A stretch of 32,575 nt of DNA from Nitrospirota bacterium (lineage in GTDB: Bacteria > Nitrospirota > Nitrospiria > Nitrospirales > Nitrospiraceae): the NCBI GenBank assembly GCA_030684575.1, contig JAUXVD010000010.1:1-32575 (forward strand), written 5' to 3'. The notes beneath the pieces are model-generated. The model was not told the DNA's origin and did not search any database. It saw only the letters and a list, made by a program, of their open reading frames with translations. The position numbers and the translations under genes are program-made. Below, in pieces: positions 2,964-19,770 of the stretch (the first letter of the stretch is position 1; the number at the start of each line of letters is the position of its first letter).

Positions 2964-3884
2964 ATGAATGCTAAAAGCTCGGTTTTGCTCGTGTTCGGGT
3001 TCGCCTCGTTATCGTGCTTCTTTTCTCAGGCAGCCCAGGCTCAGACTGTGAATGTCACGATCCAGGACAATTCTGGTGCAGTCTGTGCGCTTCCTACAGC
3101 GGCTAAGACTGTCTTACTACCATCAACCCCTCCTGCTCCCTGCGCAGCCTACAGCGGCTTTTCGATTGCAGGTATCGGTGCCGGTGCCAGAGTCACTGAT
3201 GGCGGCGCGAACGATGCAACCGAGGATGTGCTTCTTCTGCGCGGGACCGTGATCACGGCGACCGCGGCGAATGTAACGGGCAAGATTACCTTCTGGGCAA
3301 CAGACTTTACATCCGGCCCGACAGGCCCGTCCAATTACGAGACCACGGCCAAAGGCACATTGACTCGGTCGAATGGGACAAGAGCAGCGAAGGATAGTTG
3401 GATCAAGATCAGCGGCTACTGGCAGCAGCTTAACTGGGACGAGATGGGGACTCAACAGTCCCACTATGTGTCTAGCGAACTTCCAGTGTCATACGGAACG
3501 ATCAACAAAGCGACGGCGGAACTCTACAGCCCAAGCGTCACCAACCGCGGGCTCAAAGGCTATGTCGAGTTCTTCCTCAAGAACAGTGGGGACAAACTCA
3601 CGTTTTCAGATGGGACAACCGATGGGGTGCGAGTGCGGTATGCGACTCCGGGCGGCGAAGGCAGTTGCCCTCCTGGCTTAACGTGCAACGAAGATCCAGA
3701 ACTATGCCGTGCCGGCCCTCCGGCTTGCCCGGAAGGGTCTCAATGTCTTTCCTGCGTTAAAGAATCGGAGAGAACATGGTTTAGCAAGTGGTTGTGTAGC
3801 ATGGGGATAAGATGCCCTGCTTGCATCATTCCAGACCTTGAGACCACGGGGGAAGTAAAATTTGAGAAGACCATCAAGAAATAG
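2964..3884 (+). CDS. Exported Cys-rich protein of unknown function
   Basis: This 306-residue protein is not recognised as a named family. The start is supported by an AAGGGGGG Shine-Dalgarno 7 nt upstream of the ATG. The N-terminus is a clear Sec signal peptide, with Lys at position 4, a hydrophobic core and a probable cleavage after the AQA at about residues 25-27. The middle (about 30-225) is polar, Gly/Thr/Ser-rich and probably beta-stranded. The C-terminal ~75 residues hold about ten cysteines in CxxxxxC and CxxC arrangements (CPPGLTC, CLSC, CPAC), suggesting disulfides or metal binding in the periplasm or outside the cell. It sits between the metalloprotease and the TpsA exoprotein on the same strand, so it may belong to the same surface programme. 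That link rests on position only. Confidence 0.75.
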   Translation: MNAKSSVLLVFGFASLSCFFSQAAQAQTVNVTIQDNSGAVCALPTAAKTVLLPSTPPAPCAAYSGFSIAGIGAGARVTDGGANDATEDVLLLRGTVITATAANVTGKITFWATDFTSGPTGPSNYETTAKGTLTRSNGTRAAKDSWIKISGYWQQLNWDEMGTQQSHYVSSELPVSYGTINKATAELYSPSVTNRGLKGYVEFFLKNSGDKLTFSDGTTDGVRVRYATPGGEGSCPPGLTCNEDPELCRAGPPACPEGSQCLSCVKESERTWFSKWLCSMGIRCPACIIPDLETTGEVKFEKTIKK

Positions 3885-4085: not shown

Positions 4086-7000
4086 ATGGCTCAACAGTGG
4101 CTGACATTCCCTGGCGCAATCGCGAGTCGGCTAGCTGCGATTACCATCGGAGTCCTGCTTAGTGTGACTGAAATTCTGACGCCGGTTACCAGCCAGGCGC
4201 AGATGAGATCGGCTATTGTGTCTGACGGAACTCTGCCTACACCAACCGCGGTGACTCAAGTTGGCAATGTGTATAACATCAATGGAGGGACAATCCGAGG
4301 GGGCAACCAGTTCCAGAGTTTTGACGTGTTTTCGGTCGGGACCGGTGATATCGCCAGCTTCAACGGACCCAGCGGTATTACCAACATCCTCAGCCGAGTC
4401 ACCGGTCTTCAATCAGGGCTGCAACAGTCGCTCATCGATGGAACGCTGCAGACCTCGATACCTGGGGCGAATCTATTCTTAATGAATCCCGCCGGAGTCG
4501 TGTTTGGACCCAATGCCACGCTAAATGTGAGCGGTTCGGTCACCATCACCTCCGCCGACTATCTCCGGCTTGGAGAAACAGGCCGGTTCAATGCCACTCC
4601 AGGAGTTGCAGATGCGCTCTTGAGCGCCGCTCCCGTCGCAGCCTTTGGATTTATCAATCCAACTCCCGCTCCCATTACCGTGCAGGGAAGCTTTCTGAAT
4701 ATCCCCATTACAACAGATCCCGAAACGAGCCAACCCGTCGGCCACGCTCTTTCGCTCGTCGGTGGAGACATTACGGTCGCCGCTGATCCCTTAACTGGAA
4801 CCCCCAGTTATCTTTCAGTCCCCAGCGGACAAATCGCTCTTGTTAGTGTCGCATCTCCCGGCGAAGTCCTCTCGCCATCACTTCAGAGCGGAGCGAACGT
4901 CACGATGGGAACGATCCGTCTCCAAGAATTTTCCATCCTCGATGTGTCCGGCAGCACACTCGAAGGCGATGGGCATGCAGGAACTATACGCATTAGAAGC
5001 GGGCAGCTCGTCATGGATAGCGCCATCATCCTTGCCGACACAGTAAGCGGTATCAGCGGGAACAACCTGGGGGTCAGTATCGTCACGCAGGGTGACGTCT
5101 TCCTCGCCAATACAAGCTTGATCTTGACTGAATCATTCGGAGCAGGGCGATCCGGAGACATCGAGATCAGTGCGCGGAATGTGACCATCGCAGACGGCTC
5201 GCTCGTGCAAACGATCACTACCGATGTCGGCCAGGGAGGAAACATTACCGTCAATGCATCGAATTCCGTGGCTGTAACCGGGACGGATAGCTCTGGGAAT
5301 CCCAGCAACATCCAGACTCTTACCTTTGGCACAGAGAATGGTGGCTCAGTCAGCATTGTCGCTTCGTCGCTGAATGTCAGCGACAATGGATTCCTTCAGA
5401 CGGCCTCGTTCGGGTCAGGGAATCCGGGGTACGTGTCCATCCTTTTAGGAAATGATCTGAATGTCACAAGCGGGGGCAGGATTTCGAGCGACGGCGGCGG
5501 AGTCACGTCCGGGAATATCACTATTACCGCTGATCAGGCATTCATTTCCGGGCAGTCAGACCAAGGTCGAAGCCGCATTGAGAATAAAAACGGGACAGAG
5601 CGGACTGGTAACATTGAATTTAATGTCCGTGATCTCATCGTGACGGATGGCGCCAGAATCAACAACGAAGGGCCAGGACAGAGCGGAAACATTACAATTG
5701 TCGCAACTGAGTCAGTCTCAGTTTCCGATCAGGCAAAGATTCGCATGGTAACGGATTCTGGTCCAGGAGGTGTCCTGGATATTTCTGCACCGACCTTTAC
5801 CATGGATCAAGGGATTCTCCAGACGTTGGCTGTCAGGTCCGGAGACGCGGGAGCAATCACCCTGAATGCCGACAACGTAACGCTCAGGGGGAGCCAAATC
5901 AACAGCCAAACGGTGCAGGGCCTCGGAAGGGGCGGAGACGTGACAATCAATTCAACCAATATGGTCAAACTATTTGGACAGTTTACCGGCAGTGAAACAG
6001 ACATTGCAGGTCCGGCAGGCATTTTCACGACAACAGCAGGGTTGGGAGCTGAGGCCGGTTCCGTTCTTGTGAAAGCAACGGCCGTGGAGCTTTCTGAAGG
6101 AGCCAGAATAAATAGCAGTACATTTGGCGCTGGCAATGCAGGGACTATCACAGTGCAAGGCCTCGCCAGCCCGGCTGATTCCATAACCATCAACGGCTCT
6201 GGTAGCGGCCTGTTCACCGATACACAAGGGTCTGGCGCGGGCGGCAACATCACCGCCTGGGCGAATCAGGTGCAACTCTCCAACGGCGCGACGATCTCAT
6301 CGAAGACCAGCGGCTCGGGGAACGCTGGTAACATTCTGGTCAAGGCCAACGATGTTGCGATGAGTGGCGGCGCGACCATCACGGCCGCCTCGACCGGCGC
6401 CGGCAACGCCGGAACCGTAACGATTCAAGGCACGAACAGCCCGGCCAATTCCATCGTCATCGCGGGCGTTGGCACCGGCCTCTTCACCGACACGCAGGCC
6501 ACCGGCGCGGGAGGCAACATCGATCTCAACGCACGCACGATCACCCTCCAGAACGGCGGGACAGTCTCGGCCAACAGCTCCGGTACCAACACTAACGCCA
6601 CAGGCGGCTCGATTACGATGAACGCAACGGATCAAGTCACGATGACCGGCGGCAGCGCGATCACGGCCACCAGCACCGGCCCCGGGAACGCGGGCAATAT
6701 CTCGATCAATGCGGGCCAGCAATTCGACATGCGCGACAGTTCCATCAACACCGAATCCTCCCAGGCCAGCGGCGGGAATATCGATGTACAGGCGATTGCT
6801 CAGGTACGACTCGTGAACAGTACCATCAGCACCTCCGTCCTTGGCGGCAGCGGCAGCGGCGGAAATATTACGATCGATCCGAACGTGGTGGTGCTGCAGA
6901 ACAGTCAGATTATCGCGCAAGCGATCCAAGGCGCCGGGGGGAATATTACAATCTTCACTCCCCTCTTCCTGGCCGACTCAACCAGCCTGGTGAGCGCCTC

Positions 7001-7382
7001 GTCGCAATTCGGACTGAACGGAACGGTGACGATCCAAAGTCCCACGTCTAATTTGAGCGGTAGCCTAGGGGTCTTGTCTTCGAAGACAGGCCAAGCCCAG
7101 GGCCTCGTGACGCAGCGCTGCGCGGCCTTGGCCAACGGACAGGCCAGCAGTTTCGTCGTCGCAGGGCGCGAGCAGTTGCCGGCCGACCCTGGGGGCTGGC
7201 TGACGAGTCCGCTGGCATTCGCCGGACTCGAGCCTGACCGGTTCTACAATGATGCCGTGGCCTCCGCACCAATGGCATTGACCATCCAGGATACTGAGAT
7301 GGTCTCGCTCCGCCGAATCACTCCGCCCGGCTTCTTGCTTGCACACTTTGCCGAGAGCGAGGCAACCGGGTGCCGCTCATAG
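4086..7382 (+). CDS. TpsA-type filamentous haemagglutinin exoprotein (two-partner secretion)
   Basis: This 1098-residue exoprotein is predicted to be exported by the TpsB transporter encoded next. The start has an AGGGAGGG site 6 nt upstream. A long signal peptide with cleavage near SQA-Q (residues 36-38) is followed by the TPS/haemagglutination-activity domain (about 42-190). That domain includes the GANLFLMNPAGVVFGPNA segment, with NPAG (134-137) in the position of the canonical NPNG/NPNL motif. The rest is a beta-helix of degenerate ~20-residue repeats (GNAGNI, GGNITI, GAxI). The C-terminus (CAALANGQASSF, then LPADPGGW) resembles the end of cyanobacterial and similar FHA-like proteins. The gene overlaps tpsB by 13 bp, implying co-translation. 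Role: surface adhesin or biofilm exoprotein; ligand unknown. It is small compared with FHA. Base composition changes inside the gene (see findings). Confidence 0.92.
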   Translation: MAQQWLTFPGAIASRLAAITIGVLLSVTEILTPVTSQAQMRSAIVSDGTLPTPTAVTQVGNVYNINGGTIRGGNQFQSFDVFSVGTGDIASFNGPSGITNILSRVTGLQSGLQQSLIDGTLQTSIPGANLFLMNPAGVVFGPNATLNVSGSVTITSADYLRLGETGRFNATPGVADALLSAAPVAAFGFINPTPAPITVQGSFLNIPITTDPETSQPVGHALSLVGGDITVAADPLTGTPSYLSVPSGQIALVSVASPGEVLSPSLQSGANVTMGTIRLQEFSILDVSGSTLEGDGHAGTIRIRSGQLVMDSAIILADTVSGISGNNLGVSIVTQGDVFLANTSLILTESFGAGRSGDIEISARNVTIADGSLVQTITTDVGQGGNITVNASNSVAVTGTDSSGNPSNIQTLTFGTENGGSVSIVASSLNVSDNGFLQTASFGSGNPGYVSILLGNDLNVTSGGRISSDGGGVTSGNITITADQAFISGQSDQGRSRIENKNGTERTGNIEFNVRDLIVTDGARINNEGPGQSGNITIVATESVSVSDQAKIRMVTDSGPGGVLDISAPTFTMDQGILQTLAVRSGDAGAITLNADNVTLRGSQINSQTVQGLGRGGDVTINSTNMVKLFGQFTGSETDIAGPAGIFTTTAGLGAEAGSVLVKATAVELSEGARINSSTFGAGNAGTITVQGLASPADSITINGSGSGLFTDTQGSGAGGNITAWANQVQLSNGATISSKTSGSGNAGNILVKANDVAMSGGATITAASTGAGNAGTVTIQGTNSPANSIVIAGVGTGLFTDTQATGAGGNIDLNARTITLQNGGTVSANSSGTNTNATGGSITMNATDQVTMTGGSAITATSTGPGNAGNISINAGQQFDMRDSSINTESSQASGGNIDVQAIAQVRLVNSTISTSVLGGSGSGGNITIDPNVVVLQNSQIIAQAIQGAGGNITIFTPLFLADSTSLVSASSQFGLNGTVTIQSPTSNLSGSLGVLSSKTGQAQGLVTQRCAALANGQASSFVVAGREQLPADPGGWLTSPLAFAGLEPDRFYNDAVASAPMALTIQDTEMVSLRRITPPGFLLAHFAESEATGCRS
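6123..6592 (+). repeat. 90-residue internal duplication in the TpsA beta-helix
   Basis: Copy A begins with GAGNAGTITVQG (GGGACTATC at 6141) and copy B with GAGNAGTVTIQG (GGAACCGTA at 6411), a shift of 270 bp. Both copies share SPA(D/N)SI and a GLFTDTQ-x-x-GAGGNI block. Codon choices differ, so the duplication is not recent. Confidence 0.7.
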
Positions 7383-9166
7383 ACCCGCACATCGCTCGAT
7401 GCGTGACCGGGCTGGTATCCCGTCGAGCGGCGGGGTGGCTCATATGCGTTGGAGGCGCCATGCTAACGCTGCTGGTAGCAGCTTCATCGTATGCGCAACA
7501 GGCGCTCCCTCCGATCTTCGATCCGACTGGCCGATCAGGCGAGCCGCCTGCGCCGCTGAAGAAAGAGTTTACACCACCCCCCTCCGGCCCCCAGCCGGCC
7601 CTCCCGATCGTGCCAAGCCCTCCAGCGCGAGATGGAAAAAGTCCGCTGGGCCAGATCAGGGTCTTTGTCAGCTATATTCATGTGATCGGCAATACGGTCT
7701 TCACCGATGAGGAGCTGGCCGAAGTCACCGCTCCCTACAAGAACCGGGTGCTGACGACAGAGGATCTCGAACGCCTCCGTCTCGCATTGACCCTCCTCTA
7801 TGTGAATCGAGGCTACATCACCTCCGGCGCAATCATCCCCGATCAAGATGTCACGTTCGGCGTGATCACCGTCCAGCTCATCGAAGGCACCTTGTCCCGG
7901 ATCGACATCGAAGGCCACGATTGGTTCCGCGCCGGGTATCTCCGCGACCGCGTCGAGCGAGGCGCACAGACGCCGCTCCGGCTTGAGCCATTACAAGAAC
8001 GGTTGCAGTTGCTGCAGCAGGATCCCCGCATCGAACAGATCAATGCCGAACTCCGTCCAGGCGATAAACGCGGCGACAGCCTCTTGCACGTGAAAGTGAA
8101 AGAGGCCAGTCCCTGGAAGGCCTGGCTGGACTTCAATAACTACCAAACTCCCGTGGTCGGCGCTGAGCGCGGCCTTGCGACGATTGCCCACCAGAACGTC
8201 ACCGGCAACGGCGATGTCTTCAGCTTCACCTACGGCAAGTCGCGAGGGGTGAATCCTATCATCGATACCTCCTATGCGCTCCCGTTGAACCGATACGACA
8301 CCACCTTCATCGCCTCCTACCGGCGAAACGATTTCCTCGTCGTGGACAATGCCTTTCGCTTTCTCGACTTGAATGCGGAAGCGGAAATCATCGGCCTGAC
8401 CATCCGTCAACCGATCTATCGGACCGTCTCCGACGAATTCGCGATCGCAATCACCGGCGAACACCTCTACAACAAGATCACCTCGATCTTCGACGATATC
8501 CCAGATCAGCCGCTGCTCTTCATCCCCGGCTCCTCGAACACAGGGGTGAACACGGTGAGTGCGCTTCGCTTCACGCAGGAATATACGCATCGCACGTCGA
8601 CCTCGGTGATTGCCGCCCGCTCTCGTTTCAGCCTGGGCATCGACGTCCTCGGCGCCACGATCAACGGTGGCCCCACACCCGACGGCCAATTCTTCTCATG
8701 GTTGGGACAGGTCCAGGCGGTCCGGCGATTGGACGATTGGTGGGGCATGCAGCTCCTGGGACAGATGAGCCTCCAACTCGCGAACGATCGGCTCTTTCCG
8801 CTTGAGCAGGTTCCTGTCGGGGGGCGATTCAGCGTGCGCGGGTATCGTGAGAACACCCTGATCCGCGACAACGCCTTTCTTGCCTCGGTCGAATCGCGAT
8901 TTCCCCTGATGCATTACGGCACAGGAGAACCGCTCTTGCAGTTCGCGCAATTCGTGGATCTCGGACGGGCCTGGAATGCCAAAGGCACGACGCCGGATCC
9001 TCAAACATTGGCGAGCGTGGGGCTCGGCCTGCGGTGGAACATCCTGCCGCGCGATCGCGCGCGCTTTGAACTCTACTGGGGTGTGCCGCTGAATCATGTT
9101 CCTCACCCGCCGGGGAACTTGCAAGACCACGGCATTCATCTGCAATTCGTCGTGCAGGTTCTGTAA
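7370..9166 (+). CDS. TpsB outer-membrane transporter (ShlB/FhaC/HecB family)
   Basis: This is the outer-membrane beta-barrel pore that recognises the TPS domain of TpsA and exports it. The GTG start at 7370 lies inside the end of tpsA (13-bp overlap). Another in-frame GTG at 7403 is possible. A signal peptide with hydrophobic core to about residue 40 ends in SSYAQQ. A Pro-rich linker (about 45-95) leads to a POTRA region (about 100-180; RVFVSYIHVIGNTVFTDEEL, then NRGYITSGAIIPDQ), a second POTRA-like segment to about 245, and a ShlB-type barrel to the end. The conserved L6-loop motif VRGY is at residues 489-492 (8834-8845). The protein ends in an aromatic-poor beta strand (LQFVVQVL). At 598 residues its length is normal for the family. 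Only 2 bp separate it from the CHAT gene. Confidence 0.94.
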   Translation: MPLIDPHIARCVTGLVSRRAAGWLICVGGAMLTLLVAASSYAQQALPPIFDPTGRSGEPPAPLKKEFTPPPSGPQPALPIVPSPPARDGKSPLGQIRVFVSYIHVIGNTVFTDEELAEVTAPYKNRVLTTEDLERLRLALTLLYVNRGYITSGAIIPDQDVTFGVITVQLIEGTLSRIDIEGHDWFRAGYLRDRVERGAQTPLRLEPLQERLQLLQQDPRIEQINAELRPGDKRGDSLLHVKVKEASPWKAWLDFNNYQTPVVGAERGLATIAHQNVTGNGDVFSFTYGKSRGVNPIIDTSYALPLNRYDTTFIASYRRNDFLVVDNAFRFLDLNAEAEIIGLTIRQPIYRTVSDEFAIAITGEHLYNKITSIFDDIPDQPLLFIPGSSNTGVNTVSALRFTQEYTHRTSTSVIAARSRFSLGIDVLGATINGGPTPDGQFFSWLGQVQAVRRLDDWWGMQLLGQMSLQLANDRLFPLEQVPVGGRFSVRGYRENTLIRDNAFLASVESRFPLMHYGTGEPLLQFAQFVDLGRAWNAKGTTPDPQTLASVGLGLRWNILPRDRARFELYWGVPLNHVPHPPGNLQDHGIHLQFVVQVL

Positions 9167-9168
9167 CC

Positions 9169-11508
9169 ATGAGGCTCGCCATGCCAGGCCCTGCGCACCG
9201 GTCCCTCTCCCCGACAAGGCTCCGCGTCTGTCTGTTGCTCTGCCTGGCTCTCCTGATCCCTACGATCACGACTCCGGCCTCCGCGCCGATCTCGCCTGCC
9301 GATGAGGCCATGACACAAGGCACGCAGGCCTTTCAGCGTGGCGCCTATGAAGACGCGCTACGCCAATGGAAAGAGGCTGCGCGGCAGTACGAACGTCAGG
9401 GCCAGGCCCATCAACAGAGCCAGGCCTTCGTGGCAGCATCTCGGGCGGCAGAATCCCTCGGCCAGACCAGGCAAGCCCTCCAACTCCTCGAACTCGCCTC
9501 GACCCTTGCGCAGAAGGAACCGGATATCTCCTGGCGCGCGACGGTGTTGGCGCAATTGGGACATAGTTATTTGACCGCACGGCAGCTGGATGCCGCCTCG
9601 ACACATTTGATCCAGGCCCATGCCCTCACCAGAGACCTGTCAGCGCCGGCGCTAAAGGCGTCTCTCCTGAACGATCTCGGCATCCTCCATGCCCTTCAGC
9701 ATCGTCCTGAGGAGGCCCTCGCCGCCTTTACGGAGACTACCAAGCTGGCCAAGCAGGCAGGGCTGCCCCTCGTCTCACTGCATGCCAGGCTGAATGCGGC
9801 ACGCACACAACTCCAGCTCGAACAACCAACGAACAGCCGTCTGCAGATCGATCAAGCCCTTGAACAGGTCGATGCCTTGCCGCCTTCCCGCGACAAGGCC
9901 ATCGCGTTCATGAATATCGGTCTTCTGTATCGTCGCCTGCTCCCTTCCCTCCCAGAGATCCGCACCCCGCTCCTCCTCCGGGCGGCAGGGGCGCTGCAGG
10001 AAGCGGCAAGTTTGGCCGAACAGCTGGGCGATGCGCGGATCCTGTCGTTTGCCCTCGGGCACCTCGGCCATCTGTATGAGTTGGAACAGCGGTTGGACGA
10101 AGCCCTCTCATTCACGAGGCGCGCAATCTTTTCCGCCCAATCGGTCGATGCACCGGAGTCGTTGTATCGCTGGCAATGGCAACTGGGGCGGCAGCTGGCT
10201 ACCACGGGACAACTCGACGAGGCGATCGCCGCCTATCGGCAGGCCACCGACACCTTGCACCCGATTCGCCAAGCCGTCGCCGGAGCTGCGGCAGATGCCT
10301 CCTGGTCGGATGAAAATCCGATACGGCCATTGTTTTTTGAGCTGGCAGATCTGCTGCTCCAGCGGGCCTCGCTGACCGAAGCCCAGCCTGCTGCTACAGA
10401 GGATCTCTTAGCGGCCCGCGATGCGATCGAGGCCCACAAGGCCGCCGAGTTGCGAGACTACTTCAAGGACGAATGCGTCGATGCGCTGCAGGCCAAACTC
10501 ACAAAGTTCGACCGCCTGGCGGCGAACACGGCCGTCATCTATCCCATTCTGTTCCCGACCAGACTGGAACTGCTGGTGAGCCTGCCCACAGGCCTCACCA
10601 GATTTGCCGTGCCGGTCGGGGCGGACATGCTCACGAAAGAGATCCGCCTCTTCCGCCGCACCGTCGAAAAACGCACGACGCGGGAATATCTTGCGCATGC
10701 CCAACAGCTCTACGACTGGCTGATTCGCCCGCTTGAGCCGGCATTGGCCCAACAACACATCGCCACCCTGGTCTTTGTCCCGGATAGCGCGCTCCGGACA
10801 ATTCCCATGGCCGCCCTGCACGACGGCACCACATTTCTCATCAACAAATTTGCGGTGGCCATGACGCCGGGACTCAACCTGACCGACCCCCGCCCGATCG
10901 ATCGCGAGCGGGTGAAGCTGCTTTCGAGCGGTCTCACGGCGTCGGTGCAGGGATTTCCTGCCTTGCCCTACGTCGCGGGAGAAATGAGCACGATTCATGA
11001 CCTCTACCGTGGCGACCAATTACTCAATCGTGACTTCCTCACCAGCAGACTGGAACACGAATTGCGAGATGGGCAGTATGGGATTCTTCATATCGCCACC
11101 CATGGACAGTTCTCCACCGATGCGAATCAGTCCTTCCTGCTCACCTTCGATGGGAAACTGACCATAAACCAACTGGATCGGCTCATCGGTCTATTCAGGT
11201 TTCGTCGAGAGCCGTTCGAACTGTTGACCCTCAGCGCCTGTCAAACGGGGATAGGAGACGATCGTGCGGCCTTGGGTCTCGCAGGTGTCGCGATCAAGGC
11301 CGGCGCCCGCAGCGCGTTGGCGACGCTGTGGTTCATCAACGATGAGGCTTCGTCCGAGCTGGTCACTGAGTTTTACAAGCAATTGCGCAACCCCACCCTG
11401 TCAAAGGCACAAGCATTGCAACTCGCACAGCAAAGGCTCTTGGCAGATCGGGTCTATGAGCACCCGGCCTACTGGTCGGCGTTCCTCTTGCTCAATAACT
11501 GGCTGTGA
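9169..11508 (+). CDS. Exported TPR-CHAT cysteine peptidase
   Basis: This 779-residue protein has a signal peptide (Arg-rich start, hydrophobic core about 20-38, probable cleavage at TPASA), a helical TPR solenoid (about 45-400) and a C-terminal CHAT domain (about 480-779). CHAT domains are caspase-like peptidases of clan CD. The predicted catalytic His is H645 in HIATHGQF (codon 11101-11103), and the Cys is C691 in LSACQTG (codon 11239-11241). Conserved VPDSALRTIPMAAL, GVAIKAGARSALATLW and HPAYWSAFLL segments are also present, so the active site looks intact. The start follows the tpsB stop by 2 bp with only a weak upstream AGG, suggesting translational coupling. The export signal places the protease outside the cytoplasm. 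Processing or control of the TpsA exoprotein is a reasonable hypothesis, but the sequence does not prove it. Confidence 0.92.
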   Translation: MRLAMPGPAHRSLSPTRLRVCLLLCLALLIPTITTPASAPISPADEAMTQGTQAFQRGAYEDALRQWKEAARQYERQGQAHQQSQAFVAASRAAESLGQTRQALQLLELASTLAQKEPDISWRATVLAQLGHSYLTARQLDAASTHLIQAHALTRDLSAPALKASLLNDLGILHALQHRPEEALAAFTETTKLAKQAGLPLVSLHARLNAARTQLQLEQPTNSRLQIDQALEQVDALPPSRDKAIAFMNIGLLYRRLLPSLPEIRTPLLLRAAGALQEAASLAEQLGDARILSFALGHLGHLYELEQRLDEALSFTRRAIFSAQSVDAPESLYRWQWQLGRQLATTGQLDEAIAAYRQATDTLHPIRQAVAGAAADASWSDENPIRPLFFELADLLLQRASLTEAQPAATEDLLAARDAIEAHKAAELRDYFKDECVDALQAKLTKFDRLAANTAVIYPILFPTRLELLVSLPTGLTRFAVPVGADMLTKEIRLFRRTVEKRTTREYLAHAQQLYDWLIRPLEPALAQQHIATLVFVPDSALRTIPMAALHDGTTFLINKFAVAMTPGLNLTDPRPIDRERVKLLSSGLTASVQGFPALPYVAGEMSTIHDLYRGDQLLNRDFLTSRLEHELRDGQYGILHIATHGQFSTDANQSFLLTFDGKLTINQLDRLIGLFRFRREPFELLTLSACQTGIGDDRAALGLAGVAIKAGARSALATLWFINDEASSELVTEFYKQLRNPTLSKAQALQLAQQRLLADRVYEHPAYWSAFLLLNNWL

Positions 11509-11574
11509 TTCACATGAGAGACATGGTAGAGTTCCGCCGAAGGCAGAGAGCTGTATGTTAGATGGGGGTCTCGT

Positions 11575-12336
11575 ATGAGAACATCCGCTATCATAAGCAA
11601 TGTGCTGGCCATCGTCCTCAGTTCGATCGCGTCAAGTGCAAGCGGAGGTGCCTGGCCTTTCGCCGACTCACTCCTCACCGCTCAAGCCGCCACAACCGAT
11701 GAACCGCCGTTGCCGATCTATACCCCTCCGAGCGAGACCATGCCTCGAGCGCGAGTCGGCGGGAGCTTGCGAGGGACGGACGGGAAGGATCCTGAGATCG
11801 TGGCCCTCGTGCCCGACCATGTCGGCTTGACGGTGAAACAATCCCCTTCCTTAAACTGGTTCCTTTCGAAGCCGACAACCCTGCCCATACGATTCACGCT
11901 CATCGACGCCAGATCGGTCAAACCATTGTATGAAGGCCCGATTCCCACACCGGGTCAGGCGGGGGTCCAATCACTGAATCTCAAGGATCTCGGATTGGTG
12001 CTCGAACCGGACGTGCAATATCGCTGGTATATCTCCGTCATTCGCAATTCGAACTCCCCGTCGCAGGATATCGTCGCCGGCGGGATCATCGAGCGCTGTG
12101 AATTCAGCGCCTGCCTGGTGGAAACGGCCGTCGACCTCACCTGTGACCGGCAAAGCGTCCTGCGGAATGCCGTGCGAGGCTTCTGGTACGACGCCATGTC
12201 CTGCCTCTGTGAGATGATCGACGCAAGTCCCTCAGACCAGATCCTCCGGAGGCAACGTGCCGCGCTACTCAAACAGATCGGTCTCCATGAGGTGGCAGAC
12301 TGGGATCTTCGTTCAGCTCAAGCCCCCATCCGCTAG
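11575..12336 (+). CDS. Exported DUF928-family protein
   Basis: This 253-residue protein has an N-terminal signal peptide ending near SSASGG or TAQAA. The rest follows the DUF928 pattern known mainly from cyanobacteria: RARVGGSLRG, then a VALVPD segment and GLTVKQSPSLNWFL. It continues with a beta-sandwich-like stretch (PIRFTLIDA, then PGQAGVQSLNLKDLGLVLEPDVQYRWYISV), an IVAGGIIERCEF segment, and a helical tail (FWYDAMSCLCEMIDA). Six cysteines lie in the last third, which is unusual. DUF928 has no assigned biochemical activity. In cyanobacterial genomes these genes commonly lie beside CHAT-TPR and TPS genes, and here the gene follows CHAT by 66 bp on the same strand. A periplasmic partner of the CHAT/TPS machinery is inferred. 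The family call is from remembered motif order, not a profile search. Confidence 0.8.
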   Translation: MRTSAIISNVLAIVLSSIASSASGGAWPFADSLLTAQAATTDEPPLPIYTPPSETMPRARVGGSLRGTDGKDPEIVALVPDHVGLTVKQSPSLNWFLSKPTTLPIRFTLIDARSVKPLYEGPIPTPGQAGVQSLNLKDLGLVLEPDVQYRWYISVIRNSNSPSQDIVAGGIIERCEFSACLVETAVDLTCDRQSVLRNAVRGFWYDAMSCLCEMIDASPSDQILRRQRAALLKQIGLHEVADWDLRSAQAPIR

Positions 12337-13188: not shown

Positions 13189-13415
13189 TGAATCGAACCG
13201 GCTTGAGGACGCGATGAAGATAGACGAGCATGTCGAGAGCTCGAACCGAGGCACAACCACCACACTCACGCAGGATGCGCAATGGTTGAAGCATTGGGAC
13301 CTGGACGACAGGCATGGAGGGCAGTTATCGCGATCGTATTTTGTTTATACTGGACAGAACGCGCAACCGCGCGATGACTCCGACCACTCGAACCGCTATG
13401 GTCACTGAGGCCTCA

Positions 13416-14981
13416 ATGGTCACTGGAGCAAGTCACCATTCCGTGCTCGTCGTGGAAGATAACCAGGATCTCGTGATCGGGCTGCGGGATCTCTTGCTCC
13501 ACGATGGCTACGACGTCACCGTCGCCGGCACCGTCGCCGGTGCCATTGAACTCGTTCGCACCCATCGTTTCAATGCCATCCTCCTGGACTTAGGCCTGCC
13601 GGACGGCGATGGGATCGAGGTCCTCAAAGAAACGCAACGACTGGACCCCTCTCTCCCTGTCGTGATCGTGACCGCCCATATCTCGCCGGACCGCACCGTG
13701 GGATCCCTGACAGAGGGGGCGTTCGCCTATCTGACAAAGCCCTATCATCGAGAAGAGCTCAGACAAACATTGCAGCGTGCGATCGGAGTCAAGGAACTCC
13801 GCGTACAGGCCGAGCTGGCGGCACATCTGCTCCACGAAAGCGAATCCCGTTTCCGTTCGCTGGTCGAGTCGGCCACCGATGCGATCGTGGTCGCCGATAG
13901 TTGCGGACATATCCTCTCCTGGAATCGTTCTGCGGCGGCGCTCTTCGGCTATTCCAGCAACGACGCGATCGGCAAACCCCTGACCCTCCTCATGCCGGAA
14001 CGGTACCGTTCCGCTCACGAACAGGGTCTCGCTCGCATGGAATCCACGGGAACGAGCCGCGTAATCGGGTCCGTCGTGGAATTGCACGGACTGAGGAAGA
14101 ATGGCGCCGAATTCCCCATCGAGCTCTCCCTGGCGACCTGGAACACGACGGCCGGAAAATTCTACAGTGGCATCATTCGGGATATTTCTTCGCGAAAGAC
14201 GACCGAGGACGCACTGCGCCGGAGCGATCAAATTCTACGAGAAGTGGCGAACAACACCACCGCCGTGATCTACGTCAAATACTCGGACGGCCGGTATCTC
14301 ATGGTCAATCGCCGGTTTGAGAAGATCTTCAACCTGACCACCGAGCAGATCGTCGGCCATACCGATCACGAGATCTTCCCCTCACACATTGCGGACAAGT
14401 TTCGCACCAACGATCTCGTCGTGCTGGAGCAGAGACGCACGGTCGAGTATGAAGAAGAGGCGCCACATTCGGATGGAGCGCACACCTATCTCTCCATCAA
14501 ATTCCCGCTGTGCGATCACAACGGCACAGTCTACGCGGTCTGCGGTATCTCGACCGACATTACCGAGCGCAAACAGATCGAAACCGCCCTCCGCACCCGT
14601 GAAGAGCAACTCCGCCTGGCCCTGATCTCGACAGAAGTGGGCGGCTGGTCCTGGGACTGCCACACCGGACGAATCTATTGGTCGAAACAAGTCGACGACA
14701 TGCTTGGCATCTCAGAGGTCTTACGACCGCATAGCCAGGAGGAGTGGTTTGCGCTGATGTACCAGGATGATCGGCAGACAGCCGCCCACGCGATGCGTCG
14801 CGCCATGGAACAGCCCGGCATAGAGGCGCTGTTTGAGCATCGAATCATGCGAAAGGACGGCAGCCTCCGGTGGTTCGTCTGGACCGGTCAAATCATTCGA
14901 GACCGTAAGGGGAACGCCGTGCATATGTTAGGGATGGTCCGTACCAGGATGCCCGAGCAGGATCATGAAAATATCCGCTGA
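13416..14981 (+). CDS. Response regulator with REC-PAS-PAS-PAS architecture
   Basis: The preferred start is ATG 13416, which has GAGG 5 nt upstream. In-frame ATGs at 13314, 13374 and 13398 lack such a site, and a TATACT-like -10 box at 13346-13351 would lie inside the longest version. The 521-residue protein has an N-terminal receiver with phospho-acceptor D58 (ILLDLGLPDGDG), T86 and K108 (LTKP). Three PAS domains follow (about 145-260, 265-390, 395-515), ending in typical SGIIRDIS, VCGISTDITERKQ and HMLGMVRTR strands. It has no kinase, GGDEF, EAL or DNA-binding output, so it probably acts as a phosphorylation-gated sensory adaptor for the adjacent kinase. Its 3' end overlaps the next gene by 17 bp, implying an operon. 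Confidence 0.85.
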   Translation: MVTGASHHSVLVVEDNQDLVIGLRDLLLHDGYDVTVAGTVAGAIELVRTHRFNAILLDLGLPDGDGIEVLKETQRLDPSLPVVIVTAHISPDRTVGSLTEGAFAYLTKPYHREELRQTLQRAIGVKELRVQAELAAHLLHESESRFRSLVESATDAIVVADSCGHILSWNRSAAALFGYSSNDAIGKPLTLLMPERYRSAHEQGLARMESTGTSRVIGSVVELHGLRKNGAEFPIELSLATWNTTAGKFYSGIIRDISSRKTTEDALRRSDQILREVANNTTAVIYVKYSDGRYLMVNRRFEKIFNLTTEQIVGHTDHEIFPSHIADKFRTNDLVVLEQRRTVEYEEEAPHSDGAHTYLSIKFPLCDHNGTVYAVCGISTDITERKQIETALRTREEQLRLALISTEVGGWSWDCHTGRIYWSKQVDDMLGISEVLRPHSQEEWFALMYQDDRQTAAHAMRRAMEQPGIEALFEHRIMRKDGSLRWFVWTGQIIRDRKGNAVHMLGMVRTRMPEQDHENIR

Positions 14982-15927
14982 AAGAAATCTCAACACATGG
15001 CGCTTCTCAGCCACCTGGGCAGTAGCGAGACTCGTCTTATTACTCAGCCTCTCTGCCCTGTTCATATCCGAATCCATCGCCGCAGACATCGCCATTCTGC
15101 AGTCATCCGACATCGCCGCCTACCGAGAAGCCGTGACCGCCTTGAAGGCCACGGGCCCGATTGGTGCGATCTATACCGAATACGATGTGCAGGGCGACCT
15201 GGAGCTTGGGAAAAAACTTGCGCGCAAACTGCGGGCCTCCAACGCCTCACTAGTCGTCGCCGTGGGACTCAAGGCCGCAGTAGCGGCCAAGCTGGAAATT
15301 CCGGATATCCCGATTGTCTATATGATGATCCTCAACCCGTTAGGGCATCAACTCACCGCCGCAAACATGACTGGCACACTCCTCGAGATTCCCGCCGATC
15401 GCCAGCTGAAGATCATACGAACTTTTCTGCCGACCCTTCGCAAGCTGGGGACGCTGTACAATCCCGCCAAATCCTCCTTACAGGTGAAGGAGGCCATGAG
15501 GCAAGCCACCCTCTTAGACTTTCAGTTGAAGGGGTTTCCCGTGGAGAGTGAAAAGGACGTCCCCCAGCAATTGCGTACCTTGCTTGGGGATATCGATGCC
15601 CTCTGGCTCATGCCGGATTCCACGGTGCTCACGAACGAGTCCGTCCGATTCATCCTTGAATCCTCGCTCGCGAATCAGACGCCCGTCATCGGATTCTCGC
15701 CGGAGTTCACACGTCTGGGAGCACTACTTAGCCTATCCGTCAACTATGGGGATGTCGGCCGGGAGACGAGCCTGCTCGTGAAGCGCATTCTCAACGGAGA
15801 ACGGTTGCTGCCGCTGCACCCCGTGCCGATCGAACGAGTCAAGATCACCGTCAATCTCAAGACCGCACGATTCCTGGGCATCACGTTTTCGAAGGAGCTG
15901 ACGAGTCTCATCGATGAAACGTATTAA
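14965..15927 (+). CDS. Periplasmic ABC_sub_bind (PF04392-type) substrate-binding protein
   Basis: This 320-residue protein has a signal peptide (Lys/Arg start, hydrophobic core about 20-36, cleavage near SIAA-D). The mature part has the two-lobed ABC_sub_bind fold: DIAILQSSDIAAYREAV, VVAVGLKAAVAA, PIVYMMILNP, GTLLEIPADRQL, KLGTLYNPAKSS, DALWLMPDSTVL, TPVIGFSPEF and the C-terminal KTARFLGITF motif. Family members bind small molecules such as amino acids for ABC importers. Here no permease or ATPase gene adjoins it. It overlaps the upstream REC-PAS gene by 17 bp and the downstream histidine kinase gene by 14 bp. The most economical inference is a periplasmic ligand sensor feeding the kinase. 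The ligand cannot be deduced. Confidence 0.88.
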   Translation: MKISAERNLNTWRFSATWAVARLVLLLSLSALFISESIAADIAILQSSDIAAYREAVTALKATGPIGAIYTEYDVQGDLELGKKLARKLRASNASLVVAVGLKAAVAAKLEIPDIPIVYMMILNPLGHQLTAANMTGTLLEIPADRQLKIIRTFLPTLRKLGTLYNPAKSSLQVKEAMRQATLLDFQLKGFPVESEKDVPQQLRTLLGDIDALWLMPDSTVLTNESVRFILESSLANQTPVIGFSPEFTRLGALLSLSVNYGDVGRETSLLVKRILNGERLLPLHPVPIERVKITVNLKTARFLGITFSKELTSLIDETY

Positions 15928-18232
15928 TGGGGGCTGGAAATTGAATCCTTCTCGCCTACCTGAGGAACCCATGGATCCCGAGCTAATGCCCGTGGGCCGA
16001 TTCCTCGGCCTGCGCACAAAGTTCGTTCTATTTTTCAGCCTCATTCTTATCATGGCCTGCTCCACCCTGAGCTGGTACTACGTCGAAGAACGGCGCGAGG
16101 CGATGACCGGCAACCTTCAGCAGTTGGGCACGATCCTCCTGACGAACGTGGTGCGCAACGAACATTTCCGCTATGCGGGCCTCGTCGCGGAAGATCGCGC
16201 CACACTCCAACAATTCATCGATGGCCTCATGGCGGTCCAGGATGTGGTGTATGTGGTCATCACCGGCCAGGACGGCACGGTGCTCGCCCAGAACACGAAG
16301 GGAGCACGCCACTCTTCCGGCAGTCTGGTGCGCTCCATCGATCGTCCGTTGTACCCGACCCCTCAGATTGCAAAAGACCTCTTCCGCCCGTCACGCACCA
16401 GTCCCCAGATGACGCGACTCGCCATCTCAAACGCACTCGGCAACCGGTTTGCCTGGGAAGAAGTCGTCTACGATTTGGCTCTGCCGGTGCTGCGCTCGGT
16501 AAGAAGCGTCAGCCCGCTGCAGCCCTTGTCTCTCCATCTGGATGAAACACTTTCGCTCGCATCCCCGATCGAGCCGGCCCTCGTGTCCGGAGTCGTGCAA
16601 ATAGGATTGACCGATGCGCACCTGAAACACGAGCTCGCGACGATGATCAGAAACATTTTTCTCCTCACGGCCCTCATCATCGCCGCAGGCATGTTGGGCG
16701 CCCACCTCCTCACCCTCCGCATCACGAAACCGTTGAGGCAACTGGCCGACGTGGCGAGACAAGTCGCTGAGGGCCAGTCGCCCATGCCTCTCGCCCCCTC
16801 CACGCGCGACGAAGTCGGACAGCTGACAAGTATGTTTAACCTCATGACCCGTTCGTTAGAGGAACGAAGGCTCTCCATCACCGGGAACCTCGCCACCATC
16901 AAACACCAGGTCGGCCAATTGACCACGTTGCATGAAGCGAGTGCGGCCATCGCGAGGACGCTGGACCTGAACCTGCTCCTCAACACCGTCCTGCAGCTCC
17001 TGATCGAGAACCTGGGTTTTACACGCATGCTCTTGATGCTGCGCAATCCCGAACGAAACACGGCTTATGTGGCCCAGGTCGCGGGAGTCCCGCCGGACAT
17101 CGCGGAGGCAGCCCGTGAACTCGACCTGCCGATCCAGAGCGACGGCAGCCTCCAAGCCGACCTGCTGGTTGACGGCACACCCCTGCTCATCCTAAATCTG
17201 AATGACGTAACGGACCGCATGCACATGCCGATACTGGAATTGGCTCGCCGCATCGGAGTGAATTCGTTCGTGGCCGTACCGCTCCAGAGCCACAATCAGA
17301 TACTCGGATATCTGGCCGCCGACCGGGGCGCACAGCCCTGCACGGACGAGGATCTCCATATGCTGCTGACGATTGCCCGCCATGTGGCCGCAGCCATCGA
17401 CAACGCCAGAGCCTATTCCCATCTCGAAGAGCTCACGCAGCATCTCGAAGAACGCATCACGGATCGCACGTGTGAGTTGTCGAAAGCCAACGAACGGCTC
17501 CAGGAACAGGATCGGCGGCGATCGTTGTTTCTTTCCGTTGCGTCGCACGAATTACGCACCCCCATGACCGTGATCAGAAGCTTTGCGGACAATATGCGCG
17601 ACGGGATCGCGGGGCCGGTGAGCGACCAGCAAGTCACCTACCTCACACGCATCGAGCACAACCTGAATCGGCTCACCAGAATCATCAATCAACTCCTCGA
17701 TTGGTCGCGCCTTGAGTCGCAAAAGGAAGTCCTCTGTCTCAAACCGGTCTGCATTGAAACCACGGCCCTCCTGGTGGCCGATAGTTTGCGCACCGTGGCG
17801 GCTGAAAAAACGATCGCCCTCGACATCGTCCATTCGGATGGACTTCCAGCAGTCTTGGGCGACCCCGATAAACTGGAACAGATTCTCTGGAACCTGATCG
17901 GCAACGCGATCAAGTTTACCCCGCCCGGCGGCCGCATTACCGTCGACTTCCGAGCGATCCCCGAAGGTTTCATCCAAACCTGCGTCGCCGACAACGGCTG
18001 CGGGATCGACCAGGCTCATCTCGAAAAACTCTTTCAGGAATTCTCGAAAGTGCCGTCGGCGCTCCCCGCCGTTCAGGGCGCGCAGCTCGGCCTCTTCATT
18101 ACGAAAAGCCTGGTGGCGATGCATCGCGGACGTATTTGGGTCGAAAGCACACTTGGAGCCGGCACGCGCTTGTATTTCACGATGCCGATTGCGTCTTCAC
18201 CAGAAGAAACCCGTGCTAAGAGCGGCGGATAA
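15914..18232 (+). CDS. Membrane sensor histidine kinase (HAMP-GAF-HisKA-HATPase)
   Basis: This 772-residue kinase starts inside the end of the binding-protein gene (14-bp overlap). ATG 15971, with GAGGA just upstream, is an alternative. TM1 is at about 35-55, followed by an extracytoplasmic sensor region (about 56-240, with YVVITGQDGTVLAQ resembling a Cache/PAS-like strand) and TM2 at about 245-265. The cytoplasmic part is HAMP (about 267-320), GAF (about 335-490), a coiled linker, HisKA with autophosphorylated H545 (SHELRTP, codon 17546-17548), and HATPase_c (about 625-760; N box NLIGNAIKFT, G1 DNGCGID). G2 is divergent: VQGAQLGLFITKSL replaces the usual GTGLGL. Likely partners are the overlapping binding protein upstream and the NtrC-type regulator 71 bp downstream. 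Confidence 0.92.
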   Translation: MKRINGGWKLNPSRLPEEPMDPELMPVGRFLGLRTKFVLFFSLILIMACSTLSWYYVEERREAMTGNLQQLGTILLTNVVRNEHFRYAGLVAEDRATLQQFIDGLMAVQDVVYVVITGQDGTVLAQNTKGARHSSGSLVRSIDRPLYPTPQIAKDLFRPSRTSPQMTRLAISNALGNRFAWEEVVYDLALPVLRSVRSVSPLQPLSLHLDETLSLASPIEPALVSGVVQIGLTDAHLKHELATMIRNIFLLTALIIAAGMLGAHLLTLRITKPLRQLADVARQVAEGQSPMPLAPSTRDEVGQLTSMFNLMTRSLEERRLSITGNLATIKHQVGQLTTLHEASAAIARTLDLNLLLNTVLQLLIENLGFTRMLLMLRNPERNTAYVAQVAGVPPDIAEAARELDLPIQSDGSLQADLLVDGTPLLILNLNDVTDRMHMPILELARRIGVNSFVAVPLQSHNQILGYLAADRGAQPCTDEDLHMLLTIARHVAAAIDNARAYSHLEELTQHLEERITDRTCELSKANERLQEQDRRRSLFLSVASHELRTPMTVIRSFADNMRDGIAGPVSDQQVTYLTRIEHNLNRLTRIINQLLDWSRLESQKEVLCLKPVCIETTALLVADSLRTVAAEKTIALDIVHSDGLPAVLGDPDKLEQILWNLIGNAIKFTPPGGRITVDFRAIPEGFIQTCVADNGCGIDQAHLEKLFQEFSKVPSALPAVQGAQLGLFITKSLVAMHRGRIWVESTLGAGTRLYFTMPIASSPEETRAKSGG

Positions 18233-18303
18233 AAGAGAGGAGTATATTTTCTCGTGCCTAAGGTCTACACTTTCACTCGACATCCACTATCGCGGCAGAC
18301 ACC

Positions 18304-19770
18304 ATGCGCGCCAAAATCCTAATCGTCGACGACGATCGCGATATTCTTCTCGGACTCGAGAATCGTATCACCTGGATGGGGCACGAGCCTGTCACAGCCG
18401 ACAACGGCACGGACGCGTTGCGGCTGATCGAGCAGGGAGAATTCGATCTTGTCCTCCTGGATCTGGAGCTGCCGTTCCTCTCGGGTCTGGACATCCTAGA
18501 GCGGGTAAGAGCCAATACGCACAACGAGCAACGGACCGAACGGGCCATCAGCACCACCTACACCACACCGCTCATCGTCATCCTGACCGCCTTCGGCACC
18601 ATCGAGCGTGCCGTGCATGCCATGCAACTCGGCGCATTCGACTTCCTGGCAAAACCGTTCAGCGCCGACCATTTGACGGTTGTCGTGCAAAAAGCCCTCA
18701 CCACCGTGGCACTGCAACGTCAAGTCGATGTGCTTCGTCAAGAAGTCGACGATCGTTATGAGCATCTCGTCGGGGCCAACGCCAAGATGGCCGTCCAACT
18801 CAGGATCGCCAAACAAGCGTCCACGTCCGACGTGACCGTCCTCCTGCTCGGAGAAACCGGAACGGGAAAGGAAGTCGTCGCCCGCGCCATTCATCGATGG
18901 AGCCCGCGCCGTTCCAAACCATTTGTGGCGGTCAATTGTGCGTCCCTGCCGGAACAACTCCTCGAGAACGAACTATTCGGACACGAAAAGGGGTCCTTCA
19001 CCGGGGCGGTCAAACGAGAACCGGGAAAAATCGAAGTCGCAGAAGGCGGGACGGTGTTTCTCGATGAAATCGGAGATATGCCGCTGCTCTTGCAAAGCCG
19101 CCTCCTGCGGGTCCTCCAGGATCAAACGTTCTATCGTGTGGGTGGAACGCAGCCGGTTCACACCAATGTGCGGTTCATCGCGGCCACGAATAACGATATT
19201 CGTCGCGCGATCCAACAAGGCACATTCCGTGAAGATCTCTACTATCGACTAGCCGTGATCTCCGTCACCCTCACGCCCCTGCGTGAACGACTGGACGATA
19301 TCCCGGCACTCGCCCAGCATTTTCTCAATCGCGGGGTCAGAATGGGGATGCACCGCCCCTGTACCCTCAGTGACCAATCCCTACAGGCATTGCAACAGTA
19401 TCAATGGCCCGGCAATGTCCGCGAGTTGGAGAATGTGCTGACACGCGCCCTCATCTTATGCCCCGAGGATATCCTGATGCCCGCATGCCTGCATCTATCA
19501 GATGCGCCGTTCCCCTCGGCAACCGATGCCGAAACAGGCACACCGCTCCGCCTCTATCATGAAAGCGTGGAAGCCTATAGTCGGAAAATCATCGAAGCCG
19601 CGCTACGCAGGAATGGGTGGAACCAAACCAGAGCCGCCGAAGAGCTTGGCCTTCAACGAACCTACCTGACAAAACTGCTCCGGCAGAAAGACATACCAGG
19701 CAGAGCCCCTACGGGACCAGCCTCATCATCCGTGGACGATACACCGAGACAGGATTCTCGATACCCGTGA
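18304..19770 (+). CDS. NtrC-family sigma-54-dependent response regulator
   Basis: This 488-residue regulator has a receiver (1-125), an AAA+ domain (about 155-390) and a Fis-type HTH (about 425-468, NQTRAAEELGLQRTYLTKLL). In the receiver D53 is the phosphorylation site and K117 the switch Lys. An insertion of roughly 12 residues lies before its fourth strand (ANTHNEQRTERAISTTYTT). The AAA+ domain has Walker A GETGTGKE (183-190), sigma-54 contact loop GSFTGA (230-235, Ser for the usual first Ala), Walker B LDEIGD (D254, E255) and the arginine-finger region FREDLYYRL. It should activate sigma-54 promoters when phosphorylated by the upstream kinase. Target genes are not visible. No strong -24/-12 (GG-N10-GC) promoter was identified by eye near the neighbouring genes, though a motif search was not possible. 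Confidence 0.95.
   Translation: MRAKILIVDDDRDILLGLENRITWMGHEPVTADNGTDALRLIEQGEFDLVLLDLELPFLSGLDILERVRANTHNEQRTERAISTTYTTPLIVILTAFGTIERAVHAMQLGAFDFLAKPFSADHLTVVVQKALTTVALQRQVDVLRQEVDDRYEHLVGANAKMAVQLRIAKQASTSDVTVLLLGETGTGKEVVARAIHRWSPRRSKPFVAVNCASLPEQLLENELFGHEKGSFTGAVKREPGKIEVAEGGTVFLDEIGDMPLLLQSRLLRVLQDQTFYRVGGTQPVHTNVRFIAATNNDIRRAIQQGTFREDLYYRLAVISVTLTPLRERLDDIPALAQHFLNRGVRMGMHRPCTLSDQSLQALQQYQWPGNVRELENVLTRALILCPEDILMPACLHLSDAPFPSATDAETGTPLRLYHESVEAYSRKIIEAALRRNGWNQTRAAEELGLQRTYLTKLLRQKDIPGRAPTGPASSSVDDTPRQDSRYP

Follow-up and report, generated by a model that had tools for sequence, protein, structure and literature searches.

A conserved tail of two-partner secretion exoproteins accompanies an exported CHAT protease in Nitrospirota and other bacteria

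To our knowledge, most bacterial CHAT (caspase-like) proteins have no known substrate, and the best studied one acts with Cas7-11 in the cytoplasm. The DNA stretch analysed here (the window, 32,575 nucleotides), which is the entire contig JAUXVD010000010.1 of a Nitrospirota genome (GCA_030684575.1), raises the question of what a CHAT protein may do outside the cytoplasm: genes for an exoprotein (TpsA), its transporter (TpsB), a TPR-CHAT peptidase and a DUF928 protein follow each other on a single strand. An earlier note on this DNA had proposed that the CHAT protein acts on the exoprotein in the periplasm or at the surface. Our analyses revealed a conserved C-terminal tail of TpsA that tracks CHAT, which suggests that the protease holds or cuts this tail. 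We tentatively propose, at a little less than an even chance, a class of two-partner secretion (TPS, type Vb) with a dedicated caspase-family protease that contacts the TpsA tail and probably cleaves it. The tail, the CHASE2 genes in many relatives and the fusions of TPS and CHAT domains described below are new with respect to the earlier note. The cassette comprises the following features:

4086–7382, plus strand: TpsA exoprotein, 1098 amino acids, with an export segment, a TPS domain and a beta-helix body.
4215–4934, within TpsA: TPS domain, residues 44–283 (Pfam PF05860, E 1.9e-34).
7053–7235, plus strand: tail motif of TpsA, residues 990–1050, with C1012, SSF, GR and LP..P..WL.SP (profile match E 3e-26).
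7370–9166, plus strand: TpsB transporter, 598 amino acids (POTRA_2, E 2e-19; ShlB, E 7e-24; Omp85 barrel).
9169–11508, plus strand: exported TPR-CHAT peptidase, 779 amino acids (Pfam CHAT PF12770, E 5e-57; TPR_12, E 3e-14).
10696–11490, plus strand: CHAT domain of this peptidase, residues 510–774 (PF12770, E 5e-57).
11101–11103, plus strand: codon of the catalytic His645 (column H in 68/68 related CHAT domains).
11239–11241, plus strand: codon of the catalytic Cys691 (column C in 68/68).
11575–12336, plus strand: exported DUF928 protein, 253 amino acids (Pfam PF06051, E 1e-33).

The Pfam profiles matched all four families named in the earlier note, and its gene order on one strand is exact to the base, with a 13-bp overlap of TpsA and TpsB, a 2-bp gap between TpsB and CHAT and a 66-bp gap between CHAT and DUF928. 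TpsA has the TPS domain of type Vb exoproteins, including the NPXG-type motif (TIGR01901, E 8e-17; NPAG is visible in the sequence), and TpsB, encoded beside it, combines POTRA with the Omp85-type barrel of the type Vb transporters. The peptidase matches its family above the profile cut-off and possesses the His/Cys dyad, while the DUF928 protein scored 116.7 bits against a gathering cut-off of 26.

The tail motif extends over about 55 residues and includes one invariant Cys (68 of 68 rows), an S-S/T-F/L stretch, usually GR[DE]xLP and a later, nearly invariant P. In the fold model of the C-terminal part of TpsA, based on rows from the window and the genome loci with three plasmid-record rows left out, a predicted beta-helix (predicted local distance difference test, pLDDT, of about 95) continues up to the motif and is followed by a disordered tail (pLDDT of about 47). 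The body of TpsA is Cys-free in 49 of 70 proteins, and in 58 of 70 tailed TpsA a second Cys is located no more than 15 amino acids from the C terminus; in the window it is C1096, three residues from the end. A Cys pair at the end of a Cys-poor beta-helix exoprotein is the layout of the HMW1/HxuA-type anchor, and a putative disulfide loop would lie in the TpsB pore. The available portion of PMC5422565 presents the C terminus of HMW1/HxuA as thought to stay periplasmic, locked by such a loop in TpsB, and the same location is expected for the tail described here. Unlike that of HMW1/HxuA, for which the same portion describes no protease partner, the tail is longer, has a conserved motif and is coupled to CHAT.

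A toxin tail of the contact-dependent inhibition type (CdiA/CdiB) was rejected as an identity for this region, since Pfam matches the TPS domain alone and the conserved tail motif is predicted to be disordered. A second, shorter set, TpsB-TPS (about 425–490 amino acids)-CHAT without DUF928 and with a divergent tail, was noted in L070, G055, G091, G127, G143, G245 and others (our locus and genome labels). The genome of Desulfonema magnum (G250, from which locus L095 comes) contains twelve tail-motif matches.

The distribution of the tail was analysed in three groups of genomes. Among 246 Nitrospirota genomes, all 55 with the tail motif carry CHAT and 50 of them carry DUF928, while the 30 TPS-positive, motif-negative genomes include six with CHAT and none with DUF928. 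The tail is absent from TPS proteins without CHAT linkage, even within cassette-bearing genomes. In the cyanobacteria, DUF928 is present in all motif carriers (31/31). In 259 Pseudomonadota genomes, where the motif search was blind to gene linkage, the tail motif was found in nine and DUF928 above the cut-off in five; TPR-CHAT and TpsB adjoin the tailed TpsA in four of the five genomes that have the motif and lack DUF928, and the tail thus tracks CHAT more closely than DUF928 or CHASE2. Moreover, the distance analysis of 42 loci, based on Mantel tests, which are weak evidence, showed that, with TpsB and the TPS domain accounted for, tail divergence follows CHAT (partial r 0.34) and, most of all, its TPR arm (0.47). 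The divergence of the TPS domain goes with that of TpsB and, with TpsB controlled, does not clearly track CHAT (0.14, p 0.08); a correlation with TpsB was seen for the tail as well (partial r 0.39).

The dyad, which the earlier note had found intact as H645 and C691, is kept throughout the aligned relatives, and the loss hinted at by a regular expression in L070 and L067 was rejected by this alignment. An N-terminal hydrophobic export-type segment was recognised in all four window proteins by a simple hydropathy test, not SignalP, with a peak hydropathy of 3.5 in the TPR-CHAT protein. The same test recognised the segment in 71 of 76 CHAT relatives vs. 4% of interior control stretches, and the N-terminal sequences of the remaining five suggest over-extended start sites in most of them. 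In terms of hydropathy, the exported CHAT protein of the earlier note is therefore confirmed. The TPR-CHAT architecture and the dyad are shared with Csx29, the CHAT protease of the Craspase complex with Cas7-11, which recognises its substrate Csx30 via the C-terminal domain of the latter (PMC10028731). Unlike the cytoplasmic Craspase, the window protein is exported according to hydropathy and encoded in a TpsA/TpsB operon, and neither Cas7-11 nor another Cas gene was found among the window proteins scanned. The search of PDB sequences with the CHAT query did not find a relevant relative.

Six single-chain TPS-CHAT fusions, all with both catalytic residues, were identified in three phyla: in Nitrospirota (L068), in Desulfarculales (L110, where the fusion sits between TpsB and CHASE2-DUF928) and in cyanobacteria (L173–L176). 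The tail motif is absent from all six, as expected if the tail is a docking or substrate element of CHAT. Two states are observed: a separate CHAT protein goes with a tailed TpsA, and a covalently joined CHAT domain goes with absence of the tail. The rule may have exceptions: in L111, the TPS domain is followed by a weak motif and then by TPR-like sequence up to the end of the contig. The fusions, in which CHAT forms the C-terminal portion of a substrate of the TpsB type, also speak for another explanation, namely that the TPS exoprotein delivers CHAT to the outside as a further cargo or a surface effector directed at other cells or host proteins. We consider this improbable: in its common form, the CHAT protein bears an export segment of its own but lacks a TPS domain and would thus not get past the periplasm, and no constant immunity-like gene accompanies the set.

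The arrangement of the genes is conserved. In the Nitrospirota dataset, DUF928 was detected in 53 genomes, CHAT in 95 and TPS in 85; all 53 genomes with DUF928 have CHAT and 50 have TPS. A CHAT gene is located at most 7 kb away from 63 of the 73 DUF928 genes, a proximity that, given one to a few CHAT genes per 4-Mb genome, we would expect by chance at a frequency on the order of 1%; the cassette arrangement is far beyond chance. The 36 neighbourhoods mostly follow the order TpsA (one to three)-TpsB-CHAT-(CHASE2-cyclase)-DUF928 (one or two), and CHAT is often separated from DUF928 by the CHASE2-adenylate cyclase gene. Outside Nitrospirota, all or much of the cluster was found in Gammaproteobacteria, metagenome-assembled genomes labelled Deltaproteobacteria, Candidatus Scalindua, Rokubacteria, Acidobacteria and Cyanobacteria. 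Among the 41 loci that DUF928 alone retrieved, 33 contain one or more further families of the set even though the contigs are short. The 117 cyanobacterial genomes include 37 with DUF928 and 37 with TPS (over the cut-off), 36 of them having both. Up to about 20 CHAT proteins were found per cyanobacterial genome. The conserved co-occurrence beyond this strain, which the earlier note had named as a check of its proposal, was found both in the Nitrospirota counts and in several phyla, and none of the genomic findings that the note had listed as contradicting it was encountered. That the genes are neighbours merely through shared regulation or joint transfer, with no mechanistic link, would agree with cyanobacterial versions being partly on plasmids and with gene spacing and orientation differing among lineages. 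In view of the spread over several phyla, the fusions, the joint occurrence of tail and CHAT and the prediction that held in the blind search, we regard it as very improbable.

The role of DUF928 was approached through its predicted fold (AlphaFold2, mean pLDDT 86.9):

Residues of about 75–175: Ig/FN3-like sandwich; residues 192–249: TPR-like helices.

Among solved structures, MtxA (PDB 4z29; Foldseek E 5e-5) matched best across the two domains, and the VIA structure comparison gave a Z of 9.6 over 161 residues with a root-mean-square deviation of 5.2. The search of PDB sequences with the DUF928 query found no relevant relative, and no similarity to MtxA was seen at the sequence level with the sensitivity applied; the pattern search used a five-row alignment, as the 16-row alignment was too diverse. 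MtxA of Magnetospirillum is likewise exported, with an Ig domain followed by TPR, and was placed by its authors in periplasmic interactions or signalling (PMC4439547). Unlike DUF928, it occurs in the context of magnetotaxis genes, and a shared predicted fold does not establish a shared function. The earlier note had offered DUF928 as an inhibitor, chaperone or adaptor; the predicted Ig/FN3 plus TPR fold would suit the role of an adaptor or a sensor more than that of an inhibitor. An obligate partnership of DUF928 with the protease-exoprotein pair was rejected, since Pseudomonadota contain tailed TpsA-TpsB-CHAT sets with no DUF928 match.

The CHASE2 receptor gene is frequent in the clusters of relatives, frequently with adenylate cyclase, and is absent from the window. 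In the cyanobacterial loci that were read, DUF928 is most often beside CHASE2, as in the Nostoc CHASE2-DUF928-WD40 cluster, where CHASE2 adjoins DUF928 and, unlike here, CHAT is unmentioned (PMC5587647). These pairs, which are common with no TPS nearby, are in agreement with an alternative in which CHAT, DUF928 and CHASE2 act as a relay that senses envelope stress or contact and has a protease substrate other than TpsA; TpsA would be only its output or antenna, with the tail docking on TpsB or serving as an anchor of the HMW1/HxuA kind. The tracking of TpsB by the tail, the two-Cys layout of known anchors and the resemblance of DUF928 to the periplasmic MtxA, which comes from an operon with signal transduction genes, agree with it too. 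We find this alternative rather unlikely, as the presence of the tail in Pseudomonadota goes with CHAT rather than with DUF928 or CHASE2, and the tail is missing both from TPS proteins that have a TpsB of their own and no CHAT and from the TPS-CHAT fusions.

Several variants of these genes were observed. The cyanobacterial CHASE2 gene is adjoined by a DUF1822 protein in L074 (5472–6431, annotated), and similar-sized unannotated genes occur in L137, L143 and L147. In Scalindua (L082, 9125–10648), one protein beside CHASE2-cyclase and CHAT has two DUF928 domains. DUF928 forms the C terminus of proteins of 458–947 amino acids in L089, L097, L101, L107 and L108, and their N-terminal parts gave no convincing Pfam family.

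Certain results weigh against the proposal that CHAT engages and cuts the tail. The tail-motif profile was built from CHAT-linked TpsA, and the genomes counted are related and not independent, so p-values overstate independence. In Pseudomonadota, G524 has three tailed TpsA and no CHAT in the fetched stretches, the remainder of the genome being unsearched. The second Cys is absent from 10 of 70 tails. No GR is present in the motif of lineages L035, L054, L062 and L109, which weakens its candidacy as a universal cut site. In the stretches fetched, cyanobacterial DUF928-CHASE2 pairs are often not accompanied by TPS or CHAT, which means that part of the cluster works elsewhere too. Finally, no cleavage was observed, and the cutting of TpsA by CHAT is what we infer. 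Of the action on the exoprotein put forward in the earlier note, the tie to TpsA outside the cytoplasm is supported by the conserved order, the export segment, the six fusions and the tail, and cleavage is the conjectural part.

In TPS systems, the N-terminal TPS domain leads in export; the conserved C-terminal tail would consequently be the last part in the periplasm, the compartment in which an exported CHAT protein with no TPS domain would also reside. Precedents for events at this end of the protein are HMW1/HxuA, Csx29 and FhaB/FhaC of Bordetella, where the FhaB C-terminal prodomain is trimmed by periplasmic DegP and CtpA and, together with the surface protease SphB1, release is controlled (PMC8263021). 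Handling of the C-terminal part is what we propose here; unlike the FhaB proteases, which are not caspase-like and include no CHAT, the candidate is a caspase-family cysteine protease encoded with the exporter. On these grounds, TpsB would export TpsA N-terminus first, and the flexible Cys-bearing tail would remain in the periplasm or the TpsB pore. The periplasmic TPR-CHAT protein would bind the tail, probably via its TPR arm, and could cut it or a nearby site, by which the tethered exoprotein would be freed or reset. DUF928 and, where present, CHASE2 may sense the complex or the envelope state and tune CHAT or report inward, through cyclic AMP (cAMP) where the cyclase is present. A further step, possible though doubtful, is surface-to-cytoplasm signalling, with the TpsB-threaded tail as a tension or contact fuse, the CHAT cut releasing TpsA, and DUF928 and CHASE2-cyclase altering cAMP.

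One gene just upstream of the cassette is probably a lineage-specific extra member:

2964–3884, plus strand: small exported protein, 306 amino acids, just 5' of TpsA, with homologues in related loci.

Its homologues lie directly upstream of TpsA in L038, L041, L056, L059 and L063, and the Pfam scan gave no match. Further upstream (3–2831), a large protein open at the contig edge has FG-GAP repeats and a metalloprotease-type motif, HELGHTFGLSH (HExxHxxGxxH); no homologue was found in the related loci fetched. The cassette is followed (13314–19770) by genes for a response regulator-PAS protein, an ABC_sub_bind protein, found again in ten related loci, a HAMP-GAF histidine kinase and a sigma-54 regulator.

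In the literature search, which covered 5.39 million papers, 'CHAT domain' was never paired with 'two-partner secretion', nor DUF928 with CHAT, although such absence is no proof of novelty. The cassette ties CHAT to secretion over several phyla, gives DUF928 a predicted fold and a context, and names a candidate for an extracytoplasmic CHAT substrate down to the peptide motif. If the fuse signalling were true, it would provide a substrate and a role for a large group of bacterial CHAT proteases that are exported.

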